Assembly: GCA_001874335.1 (NCBI GenBank)
Contig: MPDE01000009.1
Location: 62,001 to 126,000, forward strand
DNA: 64,000 bases
Direction of reading: 5' to 3'
DNA from: Bacteroidetes bacterium MedPE-SWsnd-G2
Lineage (GTDB): Bacteria > Bacteroidota > Bacteroidia > Flavobacteriales > Flavobacteriaceae
Position 1 is the stretch's first letter; every line of letters begins with the position of its first letter. Positions 37,583 through 63,736 of this stretch are shown here, in pieces. The translations under genes and the position numbers were made by a program. Under the pieces are notes generated by a model. The model was not told the origin of the DNA, made no database searches, and saw only the letters and a program-made list of their open reading frames with translations.

Positions 37583-37628
37583 CAAAGTTACATTCGCAGC
37601 CTTCTTCAAAAACTGACAAAAGTCAGTT
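37583..37628 (-). promoter_or_regulatory. Fnr-like box and -7 element of the pflBA promoter
   Basis: Box AACTGACAAAAGTCAGTT (37611-37628): perfect 7-base arms around AAAA. Downstream on the minus strand is a perfect -7 box TAACTTTG (37590-37583). The box centre is 36.5 bases from the last G of that element, the same distance as at hemN, ccoI and crp. This is class II activator geometry. The leader to the pflB ATG is about 35 bases. Remainder of the spacer to 37880 holds the acyl-CoA synthetase promoter and no gene. Confidence 0.75.
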
Positions 37629-52009: not shown

Positions 52010-52043
52010 AAAAAAGGCTCTGTAAAAACAGAGCCTTTTTTTT
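52008..52043. terminator. Bidirectional intrinsic terminator
   Basis: A-run plus GGCTCTG, six-base loop, CAGAGCC plus T-run (stem 52008-52022 with 52029-52043). It ends the propeller gene and overlaps the stop of the convergent regulator gene. Confidence 0.92.
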
Positions 52044-52719
52044 ATTCCATTATTTCCAATCCGTGAGGATCTTCTATTTTAATAAATTTTCCTTCAGTAG
52101 AAATAAGTCCATCCTTTTTAAATTGTGACAAAATTCTAATAGCCGATTCGGTAGCCGTTCCAACTATAGTTGCATAATCTTCACGTGATAATGCCACTGC
52201 AATGGCCCCTTTCTCATTAACGCCAAATTGCTTTTCCATGTACAATAACGTAGCAGCTATACGTTGCTTAACCGATTTTTGAGCCATATACACAATGATG
52301 TCATCAGCATCTCTTAAATCGTGTGCCATTTGTTGCATCAAATCCATAGAAAACTCCGGGTTTCGCTTTAGATCATGAATTATTTCAGATTTCGGGATAA
52401 AACACAACTCCATATCTGTCAAAGCGGTAGCTTGTAAATTGGTACTCTCCTCCACAATCAGCGAACGTTGCCCAATCAAATCTCCCTTAACATTAAGCTT
52501 AACTACCTGGTCTTTACCATTAGCACTTAACTTAGTTAGTTTACAAACACCATCTCTAACGCAATAAACGCCATTCAGAATGTCGCCTTCGTCAAAAATA
52601 ATTTCTCCTTTTTTTACATGTTTTGCAGTTTTACAATTCGAAATCCTTATTAATTCATCTTTAGTCAGTGATTTTAAGGCATTAAATTGCTTAACGATAC
52701 ATTGGTCACATTTACTCAT
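52042..52719 (-). CDS. Fnr/Crp-family transcriptional regulator
   Basis: A 225-residue regulator: N-terminal cyclic-nucleotide-binding-type beta-roll (GEIIFDEGDILNGVYCVRDG, GDLIGQRSLIVEE), dimer helix (LMQQMAHDLRDADDIIVYMA) and C-terminal HTH (ALSREDYATIVGTATESAIR with recognition helix TATESAIRILSQF, which keeps the Glu and Arg that read TGA in Fnr). Cysteines at 4, 7, 29, 53, 59 and 106 offer ligands for an iron-sulfur cluster, as in Fnr (CxxC near the N-terminus). Divergent from the cbb3 oxidase operon; the shared spacer carries an Fnr-like box at matching distance to both promoters. Proposed as the oxygen regulator of pfl, hemN and cco. Confidence 0.85.
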   Translation of the reverse strand: MSKCDQCIVKQFNALKSLTKDELIRISNCKTAKHVKKGEIIFDEGDILNGVYCVRDGVCKLTKLSANGKDQVVKLNVKGDLIGQRSLIVEESTNLQATALTDMELCFIPKSEIIHDLKRNPEFSMDLMQQMAHDLRDADDIIVYMAQKSVKQRIAATLLYMEKQFGVNEKGAIAVALSREDYATIVGTATESAIRILSQFKKDGLISTEGKFIKIEDPHGLEIME

Positions 52720-52727
52720 ATATTGCG

Positions 52728-52801
52728 CAAAGATTATAACTCAAAATTACACAAAACATGACAATTATCATATAATTATATTCACTATATTCTAACCTTT
52801 G
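52728..52801. promoter_or_regulatory. Shared Fnr-like box with divergent crp and ccoI promoters
   Basis: Box ATGACAATTATCAT at 52758-52771 (TGAC-N4-ATCA). On the plus strand TAACCTTTG ends at 52801 (ccoI); on the minus strand TAATCTTTG ends at 52728 (regulator gene). The centre, 52764.5, is exactly 36.5 bases from the final G on both sides. Each -7 box has one extra base between TA and TTTG. Leader lengths: about 23 bases for ccoI and only about 8 bases from the box to the regulator ATG. Confidence 0.78.
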
Positions 52802-52824
52802 ATGTCTAATACTAAAGGGTATAA

Positions 52825-55200
52825 ATGAACCAGGCCAACTGTTTCCATTGCGGTGATATTTGTGTGACAACCAACATTAAAATTGAGGAAAAACAATTTT
52901 GTTGTACAGGTTGTAAAACTGTGTTCGAAATTTTATCTGAAAGTGATTTAACTAATTATTATGATTTAGTATCATCGCCCGGCGCTATACCTGAAGAAAT
53001 TGTTGGTAAGTACGATTTTTTAGAAGACAAAACAATAGTCAATAAACTCTTAGACTTTAATGATGACAAACATCAAATTGTAACGCTTTACATTCCTCAT
53101 ATTCACTGTAGTTCATGTATTTGGATTTTAGAAAACTTACATAAGCTTCAAAATGACATTTCAAGTTCACAGGTTAATTTTGGAAAGAAAACTGTTAGAG
53201 TTTCATACAATTCTGAGAATTACAGCCTTAAGGCTTTAGTATTACTTTTGAGTTCTATTGGTTATGAACCCTATATTAGCTTAGAAGATTATGACAAAGC
53301 AAAACATTCTGTAGACCGATCATTAATTTATAAATTAGGGATAGCTGGATTTGCCTTTGGTAATGTTATGTTCCTGTCGTTTCCAGAATATTTTCAAGTA
53401 AGTGGGTACTGGATTGAAACTTATAGCCCTCTTTTTAGATGGCTCATGTTTGGCTTTTCCCTACCTGTTGTTTTTTATGCTTCAGCAGATTATTTTAAAT
53501 CGGCTTACAAAGGTTTAACATCTAAATTATTAAATATTGATGTGCCAATAGCACTGGGGATTACCGTTCTTTTTGTTAGAAGTACAATTGAAATTGTTTT
53601 TGATTTAGGTACTGGATTCTTTGATAGTTTAACAGGATTAGTCTTCTTTTTACTATTAGGAAAGTTTTTTCAGCAAAAAACATATTCCTTCCTATCTTTT
53701 GAAAGAGATTACAAATCATATTTCCCAATTGCAGTCACAAAAATTGACCAACAGAAAGAAGAAACTCCTATTCAACTCTACGAAATAGAAAAGGGCGACC
53801 GATTACTTATCAGAAATGAAGAATTAATTCCAGTGGATGGCATTTTGATTAATGGAGATGCTAACATAGATTACAGTTTTGTTACTGGAGAAAAGGAATC
53901 TGTCCCGAAACAATCTGGAGATAAACTTTTTGCAGGAGGGAAACAAACTTCTGGCAGTATTGAAATAGAAGCTATAAAATCTGTTGAACAAAGTTATTTG
54001 ACACAACTATGGAGTAATGATGTCTTTAACGCAGCTAATGCCGATGGATTTACCACGATAACAAACGCAATCAGTAAACATTTTACAATAGCTATTCTAT
54101 CTATTGCCTTTATCTCAACTGCCTATTGGTTATTTGCAGATGCTTCAAAAGCACTTAATGTGTTTACAGCTGTACTAATTATCGCTTGTCCTTGTGCCAT
54201 TGCATTATCAGCGCCGTTCACATTTGGAAATCTACTTCGTATTTTTGGAAAGAAAGGCTTTTACTTAAAAAACGCTAGTGTACTCGAAAAATTAGCAGAT
54301 TTAAATACTCTTATTTTTGATAAAACAGGTACACTTACAACAAGCGAAAAAGGAAAATCTGAATATGAAGGGTTAGCCTTGACAGCAGAAGAAAATAATC
54401 TTTTAAAAAGTACTGTAAGAAGCTCAAACCACCCCTTAAGTAGACAATTATACAATATCTTGGATAAACATAATATTGTAAGTATTGATCATTTTGAAGA
54501 GCATTTAGGGCAAGGTATTGAAGCTAAATCTAAAGACAATTCTATTAAATTAGGTTCTGCACAATTTGTAGGCCAACTCACCGCAAAAAAACCCTTAAAC
54601 ACTGAAATACACCTAAGTACAAATAATATTTACAAAGGAAAATTTACCTTTTATGGGGCTTATAGAAAGGGGCTTTCAAAATTATTTAATATCTTAAAGG
54701 AAAATTACGATTTAGTGGTTTTATCTGGAGATAATGATGGTGAACGTGGTAATCTTAAAAAATTACTCCCAGTTAAAACCAAATTGTTTTTTAACCAAAA
54801 ACCAGCTGATAAATTGGAGTACATAAAATATCATCAAAGTGAAGGTTCTAAGATACTAATGGTTGGTGATGGTTTAAATGATGCAGGTGCTTTAGCCCAA
54901 AGTAATGTCGGTATAGCCCTTTCGGAAAACGTAAACGTGTTTTCTCCCGCTTGTGATGCAATTTTACAGGCCGATAAACTACCACAATTAAGCGGCTATC
55001 TAAAAGCATCGCAACAAGCAATTTCAGTAATTAAATTCAGTTTTTTACTTTCTTTTATATACAATCTTGTAGGTCTTTATTTTGCAACTACTGGACAATT
55101 ATCTCCTGTTATAGCTGCTATTTTAATGCCTTTAAGTTCAATTAGTATTGTTGTGTTTACAACAATATGCAGTAATTATATAGGATCTAAACTTCAATAA
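52825..55200 (+). CDS. ccoI: CcoI/FixI-type copper P-type ATPase for cbb3 assembly
   Basis: A 791-residue P1B-type ATPase that supplies copper for the cbb3 oxidase. N-terminal cysteine cluster (NCFHCGDICV, FCCTGCKTVFEIL), heavy-metal domain with HIHCSSCIWILENL (CxxC), membrane copper site IACPCAIALSAP (CPC), phosphorylation site FDKTGTLT and hinge MVGDGLNDAGALAQS. About eight membrane helices. The first gene of the cco operon, immediately behind the Fnr-controlled promoter. It exports copper across the inner membrane for insertion into CcoN rather than for detoxification. Confidence 0.95.
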   Translation: MNQANCFHCGDICVTTNIKIEEKQFCCTGCKTVFEILSESDLTNYYDLVSSPGAIPEEIVGKYDFLEDKTIVNKLLDFNDDKHQIVTLYIPHIHCSSCIWILENLHKLQNDISSSQVNFGKKTVRVSYNSENYSLKALVLLLSSIGYEPYISLEDYDKAKHSVDRSLIYKLGIAGFAFGNVMFLSFPEYFQVSGYWIETYSPLFRWLMFGFSLPVVFYASADYFKSAYKGLTSKLLNIDVPIALGITVLFVRSTIEIVFDLGTGFFDSLTGLVFFLLLGKFFQQKTYSFLSFERDYKSYFPIAVTKIDQQKEETPIQLYEIEKGDRLLIRNEELIPVDGILINGDANIDYSFVTGEKESVPKQSGDKLFAGGKQTSGSIEIEAIKSVEQSYLTQLWSNDVFNAANADGFTTITNAISKHFTIAILSIAFISTAYWLFADASKALNVFTAVLIIACPCAIALSAPFTFGNLLRIFGKKGFYLKNASVLEKLADLNTLIFDKTGTLTTSEKGKSEYEGLALTAEENNLLKSTVRSSNHPLSRQLYNILDKHNIVSIDHFEEHLGQGIEAKSKDNSIKLGSAQFVGQLTAKKPLNTEIHLSTNNIYKGKFTFYGAYRKGLSKLFNILKENYDLVVLSGDNDGERGNLKKLLPVKTKLFFNQKPADKLEYIKYHQSEGSKILMVGDGLNDAGALAQSNVGIALSENVNVFSPACDAILQADKLPQLSGYLKASQQAISVIKFSFLLSFIYNLVGLYFATTGQLSPVIAAILMPLSSISIVVFTTICSNYIGSKLQ

Positions 55201-55239: not shown

Positions 55240-55425
55240 ATGAGTGTTATTTATCTCTTATTAGCCTTAAGTATACTTGTTGCTCTTGTATTTTTTATTG
55301 CCTTCATTTTGGCTGTAAAAAAAGGGCAATATGATGATAGCTACACACCATCAGTGCGAATGCTTTTTGATGATGAACTTATAACAGAACCTTCAAATAA
55401 AACGTCAACCAATAACAAAGATTAA
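55240..55425 (+). CDS. ccoS: cbb3 oxidase assembly protein CcoS
   Basis: A 61-residue protein with one N-terminal membrane helix (MSVIYLLLALSILVALVFFI) followed by the CcoS pattern AVKKGQYDD and a short hydrophilic tail. CcoS is needed for insertion of cofactors into the cbb3 catalytic subunit. Located between ccoI and the fused ccoNO gene, its usual place. Confidence 0.93.
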   Translation: MSVIYLLLALSILVALVFFIAFILAVKKGQYDDSYTPSVRMLFDDELITEPSNKTSTNNKD

Positions 55426-55435
55426 TTAAATTATT

Positions 55436-57631
55436 ATGGAACTACAACAATTTTATTACGATAATAAGATCGTTAAAAATTTTATCTATGCCACCATATT
55501 GTGGGGTGTAGTTGGGATGTTAGTAGGATTAATTCTTGCTTTTATGTTTCTTTTTCCCAACTTAACAGATGGAATTTCATGGCTAAGTTTTGGTCGCTTA
55601 AGACCACTGCATACAAACGCTGTAATTTTCGCATTTGTGGGTAATGCCATTTATGCCGGTGTTTACTATTCTTCTCAAAGGCTATTAAAAGCCAGGATGT
55701 TTAGTGATACATTAAGTAAAATTAATTTTTGGGGCTGGCAATTGATTATAGTTGCTGCCGCTATTACATTACCTCTTGGGTATACATCTTCTAAAGAGTA
55801 TGCTGAGTTAGAATGGCCTATTGATATTGCGATTGCTGTTGTTTGGGTTGTGTTTGGTTGGAACTTAATAGGTACCATCTTAAAACGTAGACAACGTCAC
55901 CTATATGTTGCAATTTGGTTCTATTTAGCAACATTTGTAACGGTAGCAGTATTGCATATTTTTAACAGTTTAGAATTGCCTTTAAGCGCAATGAAAAGTT
56001 ACTCTGTATATGCGGGTGTTCAAGATGCATTAGTACAATGGTGGTATGGCCACAATGCCGTGGCATTCTTCCTGACAACGCCTTTCTTAGGTTTAATGTA
56101 TTACTTCGTTCCAAAAGCAGCTAACAGACCCGTTTACTCATATAGATTATCTATTGTTCACTTCTGGTCTTTAATTTTCATTTATATATGGGCTGGTCCT
56201 CACCACCTTTTATATACTGCCTTACCAGAGTGGGCACAAAATTTAGGTGTAGCCTTTTCTGTAATGCTTATTGCGCCTTCTTGGGGTGGTATGATAAACG
56301 GTCTTTTAACCTTGCGTGGTGCTTGGGACAAAGTAAGAACAGATCCTGTTTTAAAATTTATGGTTGTGGCAATTACTGGATACGGTATGGCAACCTTCGA
56401 AGGACCAATGTTATCGCTTAAAAACGTAAACGCAATTGCCCACTTTACAGATTGGATTATTGCTCACGTTCACGTTGGTGCCTTAGCTTGGAATGGTTTC
56501 TTCGCATTTGGTATGATTTACTGGTTAGTACCAAAGTTATTTAAAACAAGATTGCATTCTATACCATTAGCCAATTTCCATTTTTGGATTGGAACATTAG
56601 GTATTATCCTTTATGCGCTTCCTATGTATGTTGCTGGATTTACTCAAGCAAGTATGTGGAAACAATTTAATCCAGATGGAACATTAGTATATGGTAACTT
56701 CTTAGAAACCGTTTCTGAAATTATGCCAATGTATTGGATGCGTGCCATCGGTGGAACATTATTCTTACTAGGTACACTTGTATTAGTCTACAATATAATA
56801 ATGACCGTAAAACAAGGGTCAACAGTTACTGATGAATTAGCTGAAGCTGCGCCATTAGCAAAAGTTTCAAGTAAACGAGTTGCCGGAGAAGGATGGCACA
56901 CATGGATTGAACGTAAGCCAATTCAACTTACAATATTAGCGACATTAACCATCCTTATAGGTGGAGCATTTCAAATAATACCAACTATACTGGTTAAAAG
57001 TAATATCCCAACCATATCAAGTGTACAGCCATACTCCCCACTAGAGTTAGAAGGTAGAGATATTTATATAAGAGAGGGTTGTGTGAGTTGTCACTCTCAA
57101 ATGGTAAGACCATTTAGAAGTGAAGTAGAACGTTATGGAGAATACAGTAAAGCAGGTGAGTTTGTTTATGACCATCCATTCTTATGGGGTAGTAAACGTA
57201 CTGGACCAGATTTACACCGTATTGGTGGAAAATACTCAGATAACTGGCACCTAAACCATATGTATGATCCTCAAAGTACATCAAGCGGATCTATCATGCC
57301 AGGTTATAAATGGCTGATAAAAGACGAGTTAGACAAGTCTCAAACTGAAGCAAAAATGGAAGTTATGGTCTCATTAGGTGTACCATATACAGAATCTGAT
57401 ATTGCCAATGCAGCCCAAGACATGTTAGCGCAAGGTACACGTATAGAGAAAAACTTGTATACAGATCCTGACTTTGCAAAAAGTTATGAGGCTGATAAAA
57501 AAGCAGCAAGTGACAAAGGTGAAGCTTTTGTAGAAATGAGAAACAGAGAAATTGTTGCCTTAATCGCTTATTTACAGCGTTTAGGTACAGATATATCTGT
57601 TAAAGATATTGATAATCAAACTTCAAATTAG
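55436..57631 (+). CDS. ccoNO: cbb3 cytochrome oxidase subunits I and II, fused (CcoN-CcoO)
   Basis: A 731-residue fusion. Residues ~1-480 are CcoN, with twelve helices and haem/copper histidines in RPLHTNAVIFAF, WWYGHNAVAFF, GPHHLLYTALPEW and HFTDWIIAHVHVGALAWNG. Residues ~490-731 are CcoO: a helix (ILATLTILIGGAFQIIPTIL) then a c-type haem site REGCVSCHSQMVRPF (CxxCH) and distal Met in GSIMPGY. This reduces O2 at low concentration and pumps protons. The fusion is usual in Bacteroidetes. Part of the Fnr-controlled cco operon. Confidence 0.96.
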   Translation: MELQQFYYDNKIVKNFIYATILWGVVGMLVGLILAFMFLFPNLTDGISWLSFGRLRPLHTNAVIFAFVGNAIYAGVYYSSQRLLKARMFSDTLSKINFWGWQLIIVAAAITLPLGYTSSKEYAELEWPIDIAIAVVWVVFGWNLIGTILKRRQRHLYVAIWFYLATFVTVAVLHIFNSLELPLSAMKSYSVYAGVQDALVQWWYGHNAVAFFLTTPFLGLMYYFVPKAANRPVYSYRLSIVHFWSLIFIYIWAGPHHLLYTALPEWAQNLGVAFSVMLIAPSWGGMINGLLTLRGAWDKVRTDPVLKFMVVAITGYGMATFEGPMLSLKNVNAIAHFTDWIIAHVHVGALAWNGFFAFGMIYWLVPKLFKTRLHSIPLANFHFWIGTLGIILYALPMYVAGFTQASMWKQFNPDGTLVYGNFLETVSEIMPMYWMRAIGGTLFLLGTLVLVYNIIMTVKQGSTVTDELAEAAPLAKVSSKRVAGEGWHTWIERKPIQLTILATLTILIGGAFQIIPTILVKSNIPTISSVQPYSPLELEGRDIYIREGCVSCHSQMVRPFRSEVERYGEYSKAGEFVYDHPFLWGSKRTGPDLHRIGGKYSDNWHLNHMYDPQSTSSGSIMPGYKWLIKDELDKSQTEAKMEVMVSLGVPYTESDIANAAQDMLAQGTRIEKNLYTDPDFAKSYEADKKAASDKGEAFVEMRNREIVALIAYLQRLGTDISVKDIDNQTSN

Positions 57632-57640
57632 AATTAAATC

Positions 57641-57829
57641 ATGTTGAAATTTGTTAAAAACCATATGGAAAGTATAAGTGGGATAGAGATCTATCCCCTT
57701 ATCTCCCTAGTTATATTCTTTGCATTCTTTGTAGTTCTTTTTTGGTGGGTGATTTCTGCTAATAAAGATTATATAAAAAATGTAAGTAACCTTCCTTTTG
57801 AAAACCAAAATAACAACGACATATTATGA
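57641..57829 (+). CDS. ccoQ: cbb3 oxidase small subunit, CcoQ-like
   Basis: A 62-residue single-helix protein (helix about residues 18-40, YPLISLVIFFAFFVVLFWWV) followed by a short hydrophilic tail (SANKDYIKNVSNLPFENQ). This is the size, position and pattern of CcoQ/FixQ, which stabilises the oxidase. Its stop overlaps the ccoP ATG by four bases (ATGA), showing translational coupling. Confidence 0.85.
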   Translation: MLKFVKNHMESISGIEIYPLISLVIFFAFFVVLFWWVISANKDYIKNVSNLPFENQNNNDIL

Positions 57830-58785
57830 GAACTTTATTCCCATCATACATAAGAGTCCCTATTTTATTTTTTATCGTAGCAGGTATCGTTGAATACTTC
57901 GTAGATTCTGGGGACAAACCCGCTTTTATTGAAAATCCTTACGTAGGTCTATTCCTATTGTTAGTTTTAATATTAATCATTGCTATAGAAGTTATTGTTA
58001 GTGCATTAGAAAATGTAATGTTTCAAACCTTAACAGAAGAAGAAAAGCAACGTTATTTAGAATCTAAAAATAAAGAGCCTCAGTTCACAAAACTGAAAAA
58101 GATATACCTTAAACTATTAGGTTCTAAACCTATTGAAGAAGAATCTGAAATTATATTAGATCATAATTATGATGGTATTAGAGAGTTAGACAACTCATTA
58201 CCGCCCTGGTGGGTTTACGGGTTCTATGTAACTATATTCTTTGCCGTATTCTATTTATTTAAATACGAAGTTTTTAATGGTGACAGTCAAGTTACTGAAT
58301 ATGAAAACGAAATGGCACAGGCCGAAAAAGATATTGCCGAATACAAGAAAAACGCTAAAAACCTAGTAGATATCAACACCGTAACCTTATTAACTGATGC
58401 AGGAGATTTAAGTGCAGGTAAAAAAGTATTTATGACTAACTGTGTTGCATGTCACAAAGCTGATGGTGGCGGTGGTATTGGACCAAACCTTACCGATCCA
58501 AATTGGATTTTAGGTGGTGGAATTAAAAATGTGTTTAGAACAGTTTCTGAAGGTGGACGATCTGGAAAAGGTATGGTATCATGGAAAAAAGAAGGTCTTA
58601 AACCATTAGAAATTGCACAAGTTTCAAGTTATGTCTTATCCTTAGAAGGTACAACACCTGCTGAGCCTAAAGCTCCTGAAGGTGATGTATGGGTAGACGA
58701 ATCTGCTCCTGCCGAATCTGGAGATGAGGCACCAGCTGAAGACACTGAAACTGAAACTGTTCCTGAGCAAGCAGTAGAAAATTAA
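57826..58785 (+). CDS. ccoP: cbb3 oxidase dihaem-type subunit III, single-haem form (CcoP)
   Basis: A 319-residue membrane-attached cytochrome c that passes electrons to CcoO. Helices near residues 9-24, 38-60 and 128-148; the conserved YDGIRELDNSLPPWWVYGFY (CcoP N-terminal motif) precedes the last helix. One haem site only, NCVACHKADGGGGIGPNL, with distal Met in GKGMVSWKKEG; proteobacterial CcoP has two. The C-terminal ~40 residues are an acidic Pro/Ala/Glu tail without structure. Overlaps ccoQ. Confidence 0.94.
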   Translation: MRTLFPSYIRVPILFFIVAGIVEYFVDSGDKPAFIENPYVGLFLLLVLILIIAIEVIVSALENVMFQTLTEEEKQRYLESKNKEPQFTKLKKIYLKLLGSKPIEEESEIILDHNYDGIRELDNSLPPWWVYGFYVTIFFAVFYLFKYEVFNGDSQVTEYENEMAQAEKDIAEYKKNAKNLVDINTVTLLTDAGDLSAGKKVFMTNCVACHKADGGGGIGPNLTDPNWILGGGIKNVFRTVSEGGRSGKGMVSWKKEGLKPLEIAQVSSYVLSLEGTTPAEPKAPEGDVWVDESAPAESGDEAPAEDTETETVPEQAVEN

Positions 58786-58808: not shown

Positions 58809-60233
58809 ATGGAAACGCCAGAAAACGAAGTTTTTAGAGACTCAATTGCCACAATTAATGAAGAAGGTAAAAGAGCTTGGGTTTATCCTAAAAAACCAAG
58901 CGGACCATATTACGATAAACGTAAACTGGTTAGTTATTTTCTTTTACTAATTCTATTAGTCTCTCCATTTATAAAAATAAATGGAAACCAGTTTCTAATG
59001 TTCAATGTCTTGGAAAGGCGATTTAATATTTTTGGATTACCATTCTGGCCACAAGATTTTCATCTCTTTGTAGTTTCAATGATAATTGGTGTAGTGTTTA
59101 TAACGCTTTTTACCGTTGCTTTTGGGAGAATATTTTGTGGTTGGATATGTCCTCAAACCATTTTCATGGAAATGGTTTTTAGAAGAATTGAATACTGGAT
59201 TGAGGGAGACCGAGGCAAACAAATACGGTTAGACAAACAAAAATGGAATGCTGAAAAAATAAGAAAAAGAGTAATTAAGTGGTCTATTTTCTTAGTCTTT
59301 TCATTTTTAATTGCAAACGTTTTTTTAGCCTACCTTATTGGTAGTGACGTACTCATACAATATGTCACTGATGGCCCCACCTCACACGTGAATACCTTAG
59401 TATCCCTATTAATATTTACGGTAATATTTTATTTTGTATTTGCTTGGTTTAGAGAACAAGTGTGTATTATAGCTTGCCCTTACGGTAGATTACAAGGTGT
59501 ATTATTAGACAACAAATCTATTATTGTAGCCTATGACCATAAACGTGGTGAAGGCAGCAATGGTCGCAAAAAATGGCGTAAAAACGAAGATCGGAAGGAA
59601 TTAGGCCATGGTGATTGTATTGATTGCTATCAATGTGTACATGTGTGTCCTACCGGAATTGATATTAGAAATGGAACACAATTAGAGTGTGTTAATTGTA
59701 CCGCTTGTATGGACGAGTGTGACAGCATTATGGAAAAGGTTGGACTTGAAAAAGGTTTGATTCGTTATGCTAGTGAAGCCAATATTGAAAATAAAGAAAA
59801 ATTCAAATTTACACCTCGACTCAAAGGATATACCGGTGTTCTAATATTCTTGTGTATTATTCTTTTCGGTATGCTTTTGATGAGAAATGATCTCGAAGCC
59901 CGAGTTTTAAGATTACCTGGTCAACTTTATGAGCATAAAGACAATAACATTATTAGTAACGTGTTCACTTACAAACTTGTGAATAAAACTACTGAAGAGG
60001 TTGAAAACGTTAGCTTTAAATTAGAAGGAATTCAAGGTGAGATTATCTTGGTTTCTGCTGAAAAACATTTTGATGTTCCTAAACAAGGTCTAAGTGAAGG
60101 TACTTTGTTTATTGAGTTAAATCAATCAAATCTTGCAGGAGACAAAACAAAACTTACCATTGCTATTTACAGTAATGACAAAAAAATTGAAACTACAACA
60201 GTAAACTTTTTGGGACCAAGAAGTTTTAATTAA
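58809..60233 (+). CDS. ccoG: cbb3 assembly iron-sulfur protein CcoG/FixG
   Basis: A 474-residue membrane protein with ferredoxin-like [4Fe-4S] centres. Features: about five membrane helices, GRIFCGWICPQTIFMEMVF, CIIACPYGRLQGVL, then two Cys clusters DCIDCYQCVHVCPTG and CVNCTACMDECDSIME, followed by a C-terminal Ig-like domain (from ~residue 370). CcoG acts as a cupric reductase that prepares Cu(I) for CcoI. Fifth functional element in the operon, 23 bases after ccoP. Confidence 0.95.
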   Translation: METPENEVFRDSIATINEEGKRAWVYPKKPSGPYYDKRKLVSYFLLLILLVSPFIKINGNQFLMFNVLERRFNIFGLPFWPQDFHLFVVSMIIGVVFITLFTVAFGRIFCGWICPQTIFMEMVFRRIEYWIEGDRGKQIRLDKQKWNAEKIRKRVIKWSIFLVFSFLIANVFLAYLIGSDVLIQYVTDGPTSHVNTLVSLLIFTVIFYFVFAWFREQVCIIACPYGRLQGVLLDNKSIIVAYDHKRGEGSNGRKKWRKNEDRKELGHGDCIDCYQCVHVCPTGIDIRNGTQLECVNCTACMDECDSIMEKVGLEKGLIRYASEANIENKEKFKFTPRLKGYTGVLIFLCIILFGMLLMRNDLEARVLRLPGQLYEHKDNNIISNVFTYKLVNKTTEEVENVSFKLEGIQGEIILVSAEKHFDVPKQGLSEGTLFIELNQSNLAGDKTKLTIAIYSNDKKIETTTVNFLGPRSFN

Positions 60234-63687: not shown

Positions 63688-63736
63688 CAAATGTAGTTTT
63701 CCTAATTTTCTAAAATTATGACAAATATCATAATTT
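63688..63736 (-). promoter_or_regulatory. Fnr-like box and -7 element of the hemN-uspA promoter
   Basis: Box TTATGACAAATATCATAA (63716-63733; arms AAATTATGA / TCATAATTT reach 63713-63736). On the minus strand a perfect -7 box TACATTTG lies at 63695-63688. Box centre to last G is 36.5 bases, equal to the pflB, ccoI and crp promoters. The hemN ATG is 16 bases beyond the -7 box. Confidence 0.8.

Follow-up and report, generated by a model that had tools for sequence, protein, structure and literature searches.

Gene Content of the Locus

The question raised by this locus is whether one regulator dimer, bound between two divergent genes, would activate both of them, or would activate one and repress the other. 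The window analysed here is a whole stretch of 64,000 nucleotides from Bacteroidetes bacterium MedPE-SWsnd-G2. It holds a gene for an Fnr-like regulator, which is divergent to ccoI and further genes of a cbb3 oxidase, as follows:

52042..52719, minus strand: Fnr-like regulator, with a cNMP-binding fold, a Crp helix-turn-helix and invariant Cys4, Cys7, Cys53 and Cys106
52825..55200, plus strand: ccoI, P-type ATPase of the copper/heavy-metal kind, cbb3 oxidase assembly
55240..55425, plus strand: ccoS (TIGR00847)
55436..57631, plus strand: ccoNO fusion, cbb3 oxidase subunits I/II (NF011053)
57826..58785, plus strand: ccoP (FixP_N, cytochrome c)
58809..60233, plus strand: ccoG (TIGR02745)

The regulator scored above the cut-off for both PF00027 (cNMP-binding-like fold) and PF13545 (Crp-type helix-turn-helix). 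Against the NCBI Fnr models, the top match was NF008365 with 100 bits (cut-off 228), and the FnrL model gave 76 bits (cut-off 300). Because these scores are well below the NCBI Fnr subfamily/equivalog cut-offs, the protein is named Fnr-like and not Fnr. Cys4, Cys7, Cys53 and Cys106 were unchanged in 120 of 120 regulator homologues. Cys4, Cys7 and Cys106 align with three Fe-S ligands at the E. coli/A. fischeri Fnr positions, and the third N-terminal ligand is missing. The invariant cysteines suggest an Fe-S site whose fourth ligand is unlike that of E. coli Fnr; Cys53 could replace the missing third N-terminal ligand, and a [4Fe-4S] cluster would be possible with such a ligand. A misplaced start codon was considered for the regulator and rejected, as M(S/G)xC(D/E)xC aligns at the start in close relatives.

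Geometry of the Shared Spacer

The spacer between the two genes contains one predicted Fnr-type site and three predicted -7 elements:

52758..52771, no strand assigned: Fnr-type box ATGACAATTATCAT, predicted site, centre 52764.5, kept in 161 of 162 orthologous spacers
52794..52801, plus strand: ccoI -7 element AACCTTTG, G 36.5 bases from the box centre, predicted start near 52806, box at -41.5
52742..52749, minus strand: regulator proximal -7 element TAATTTTG, six of six matches, G 22.5 bases from the box centre
52728..52735, minus strand: mirrored regulator element AATCTTTG, five of six matches, G 36.5 bases from the box centre

The last G of the TTTG falls at 52801 on the plus strand and at 52728 on the minus strand, each 36.5 bases from the centre at 52764.5. 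The sequence-only reading had described this symmetry, and its geometry is exact. The window thus presents -7 elements at an equal class II distance on both sides, although each octamer matches the flavobacterial -7 consensus TAnnTTTG at five of six positions, the first T being absent from both AACCTTTG and AATCTTTG. The perfect minus-strand TAATTTTG at 52742-52749 was absent from that earlier account.

Conservation of the Box and Predicted Activation of ccoI

Regulator/ccoI spacers were gathered from Flavobacteriaceae, giving 162 in which ccoI adjoins the regulator gene, and a non-redundant set of 139 spacers less than 80% identical was derived. A clear box, taken as a TGAYAnnTRTCA palindrome with at least nine of ten matches, was present in 161 of the 162 orthologous spacers, and on this conservation the box is not a chance occurrence. 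The ccoI-side TTTG was located at exactly 36.5 bases in 126 of the 139 non-redundant spacers and within one base of that distance in 135, a regularity from which we judge that the plus-strand spacing is not due to chance either. The conservation scan that had been proposed for related genomes therefore bore out the box and the ccoI side; the mirror element on the regulator side was without counterparts in the near relatives.

In class II promoters of E. coli Fnr the activator is centred at -41.5, which resembles the arrangement seen here; in contrast, the promoter here is the Bacteroidota TAnnTTTG, and the half-site is ATGAY instead of TTGAT. In Flavobacterium psychrophilum, TAnnTTTG occupies -12 to -5 (PMC9723704), so a G at 36.5 bases corresponds to a box centred at -41.5, as in class II promoters. 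The cbb3 oxidase of that species is strongly induced by oxygen limitation (PMC9723704).

The same spacing was observed elsewhere in the genome, where counts were made by pattern searches with reversed-pattern controls. A box followed by N18-28 and TAnnTTTG gave 13 matches genome-wide, nine of them at exactly 36.5 bases although 11 spacings were possible, and the control gave three over all spacings. A loose box pattern with two mismatches was uninformative (855 matches vs 756 in the control). Two of the sites lie in the window:

63718..63731, minus strand: second Fnr-type box ATGACAAATATCAT, with TACATTTG at 63688-63695 (36.5 bases), before a hemN-like radical SAM gene
37583..37625, minus strand: Fnr-type box with TAACTTTG at 36.5 bases, before a pyruvate formate-lyase-like gene

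Further genes behind such sites encode a ribosome hibernation factor (hpf), a CBS protein, a pyridine nucleotide-disulphide oxidoreductase and PEP carboxykinase. These putative targets, among them pfl, hemN and the hibernation factor, are typical of an Fnr regulon, and the site at 63688-63731 would give independent support for the class II spacing. Given the conserved spacing, its recurrence at other targets and the start-site rules (PMC9723704), there is good support for the prediction that the regulator activates ccoI from a class II site at -41.5.

In 134 of 138 non-redundant spacers the ccoI element has another base in place of the first T of TAnnTTTG, unlike the other Fnr-type targets of this genome. 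From the missing T we infer that the activator may be a stricter requirement for ccoI than for those targets.

Two Arrangements on the Regulator Side

On the regulator side, the 139 non-redundant spacers were distributed bimodally. Mode B, defined by TAnnTTT(G/A) with at least five of six matches at 22.5 bases, comprised 93 spacers, and mode A, defined by a six-of-six TAnnTTTG at exactly 36.5 bases, comprised 21. No six-of-six TAnnTTTG was found at 35.5 or 37.5 bases on the regulator side of these 139 spacers. Since mode A was picked by its perfect element, the conservation of that element, including a first T in 21 of 21, is partly a product of selection, which does not apply to the exactness of the peak or to the AGGTA leader. 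This leader, not used in the selection, stood behind the regulator element in 18 of 21 mode-A spacers vs 2 of 98 in mode B. Altogether, 22 spacers other than that of the window (21 non-redundant) show the symmetric arrangement with a perfect TAnnTTTG at exactly 36.5 bases, so the idea of symmetry describes the geometry of another group correctly.

An element resembling CAGGTATAA begins 3-8 bases after the TTTG. Most species have it on the ccoI side (e.g. L013 and L018); on the regulator side it was confined to mode-A species. The idea that this CAGGTATAA leader belongs to promoters in general was rejected for the genomes searched.

Among the 161 spacers with a clear box, 117 carried TAnnTTT(G/A) within one base of 22.5 and no perfect element at 36.5 on the regulator side. 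In a set of 106 mode-B spacers less than 85% identical, TA and TTT of the proximal element were 95-100% conserved at fixed spacing while the flanks drifted, part of this conservation being due to the choice of the set by a five-of-six match. The final base of the element is A in 54% and G in 38% of mode-B relatives, and because it is mostly A, not G, the promoter strength of the element is unsure. In mode B, 17-24 bases usually separate the 22.5 element from the ATG. In several Flavobacterium species (L054-L058, L060) the box was about 143 bases from the regulator start, and a perfect -7 element was about 126 bases from the box; by these distances, the regulator promoter of these species seems independent of the shared box.

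Mapping of the A/B state onto a tree of 120 regulators indicated at least four changes with strong clustering, a count that is approximate as branch support is modest. Some mode-B rows are nested among mode-A rows (e.g. L016, L183, L185), and L059, a mode-A row, was placed in the Flavobacterium group. By this tree, some four or more switches of wiring seem to have taken place around the fixed box.

The Probable Regulator Promoter in the Window

The window belongs to mode B by its perfect 22.5 element, located 22 bases from the ATG. Neighbouring rows of the regulator tree belong to mode B or lack a readable spacer, with L047 as the sole exception, although the window sits on a long branch and several of the forks are not settled; L111, L158 and L160, which are fairly near but not in the tree, do not fit mode B. 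No second genome of the window's own genus was found in the search.

The element TAATTTTG predicts a regulator start near 52737. With its G at 22.5 bases, the box would be centred at about -27.5, over the -33 region of the regulator promoter, which is a position where members of the CRP/FNR family usually repress. By the -12 to -5 rule (PMC9723704), the box would span about -34 to -21 and overlap the -33/-7 core. As the 22.5 element is common to nearly all near relatives, is intact here and puts the box on the -33 region, autorepression appears the likelier default for the regulator in this genome.

From the mirrored AATCTTTG, a start is predicted near 52723 with a leader of 4 bases, and such a second promoter is doubtful. 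In mode-B relatives, the background frequency of a five-of-six TTTG octamer is 0.16% per position; for an octamer scoring as well as the mirror element on the ccoI-side matrix, 0.03% of background positions qualify. The match is therefore uncommon, and at a position named beforehand it would be unlikely as chance; however, this position was noticed afterwards. On the ccoI-side matrix the mirror element scores higher than the ccoI element of the window itself, and because of this good match and the low chance rate per position it may be functional. The other non-redundant mode-B spacers have no TTTG at 36.5 bases on the regulator side. The mode-A elements of L059 and L184 have leaders of few bases or none, so a short leader does not exclude the mirror element, and leaderless mRNAs account for 5.5% in F. 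psychrophilum (PMC9723704). The element may thus be either a chance match or a second, nearly leaderless promoter.

Proposed Mechanism and Alternatives

We consider it probable that the dimer formed at low oxygen activates ccoI and represses its own gene from TAATTTTG, the mirror element being at most minor. From sequence, spacing, conservation, gene content and the spacing shared with other targets, we infer the binding, transcript starts, sign of regulation and oxygen sensing that this mechanism involves. At low oxygen, one dimer of the Fnr-like regulator would occupy the box at 52758-52771 and, centred at -41.5, would switch on the ccoI promoter as a class II activator; lacking the first T in its -7 element, this promoter is probably activator-dependent. 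The regulator gene would be transcribed mainly from the element at 52742-52749; since the box also covers the -33 region of that promoter, the bound dimer would repress the regulator's own gene. The mirrored element at 52728-52735 would add no more than a weaker second promoter with almost no leader, which the same dimer could activate. In other Flavobacteriaceae, a regulator promoter 14 bases further from the same box would result in mirror class II positions and predicted autoactivation.

The sequence-only reading had proposed a class II activator for both transcripts, with AATCTTTG as the main regulator promoter. This holds well for ccoI. For the regulator it is unlikely in this genome, given that the mirror element is absent from the near relatives, and that the 22.5 element is common to them, matches perfectly here and points to autorepression. 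The exact 36.5 spacing and the good match to activator-type -7 elements do speak for such symmetric autoactivation, and the geometry is kept in the 22 other spacers, two of them with very short leaders; yet at one position the mirror element carries A against T in all 21 mode-A regulator elements, it is without the CAGGTA leader, and it is 8 bases from the ATG vs 22-26 in nearly all mode-A species. As the main mode in the window, symmetric autoactivation would therefore be unlikely, and possible by way of a second promoter. A dual regulator promoter similar to that of Cmr, described below, would have the dimer repress the 52737 start and activate both the 52723 start and ccoI, so that the regulator level is buffered. 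Both elements are present in the window, and L170, L171 and L175 also have both spacings, but their 22.5 elements match at five of six positions and relatives near the window do not share the mirror element, which makes us rather doubtful of this arrangement despite the precedents of a Cmr site with the same topology (PMC5499769) and of Rhizobium leguminosarum FnrN, auto-regulated in both directions, though by two boxes (PMC7888657). It is quite improbable that the box serves ccoI only, with the regulator expressed independently and the 22.5 element being no promoter: the proximal element often lacks its final G in relatives, and some Flavobacterium species have the box more than 140 bases from the regulator start, but the strong conservation of TA and TTT at fixed spacing in the partly selected set of 106 mode-B spacers argues against it.

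Precedents and Significance

The principle of divergent control from a single site is known. Work by El-Robh and Busby from 2002, cited in PMC5499769, reportedly found that one target site suffices for E. coli CRP to activate divergent promoters; it shares with the present case the principle of one dimer activating in both directions, and differs in being, by its title, a systematic promoter-probe plasmid study with no oxygen-sensor autoregulation. In Mycobacterium tuberculosis, one CRP/FNR-family site lies between the regulator gene cmr and its divergent target rv1676; in vitro, Cmr activates the divergent target and has two promoters of its own, one repressed and one activated (PMC5499769). 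That system concerns another phylum, promoter type and signal in one studied species, and the part of the report available to us does not describe a family-wide fixed spacing or a switch of wiring (PMC5499769). In R. leguminosarum, the Fnr-type oxygen regulator FnrN likewise activates the cbb3 genes (fixNOQP) and regulates itself both ways, but fnrN has two anaeroboxes, at -34 and -2, and no single box shared with the oxidase genes (PMC7888657). The earlier remark that no such case was known for Bacteroidetes agrees with our literature search on Bacteroidota Fnr with cbb3 and shared-site control, which yielded nothing specific; neither Fnr-cbb3 control of this kind in Bacteroidota nor the fixed mirror geometry and the apparent repeated switch were found described in the searchable literature.

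For the family as a whole, a tentative picture, to which we give slightly less than an even chance, is that one lineage uses mirror class II activation of its own gene and the cbb3 operon, that sister lineages repress themselves, and that feedback has switched repeatedly, with the window as a hybrid having both promoters. The distance of 36.5 bases from the box centre to the last G of the TTTG offers a testable rule for the oxygen response of Flavobacteriaceae. The predicted change in feedback sign is visible as a 14-base displacement of one promoter around a fixed site, across many sequenced species, some of them cultivable, and would thus represent a natural experiment on the evolution of feedback sign.
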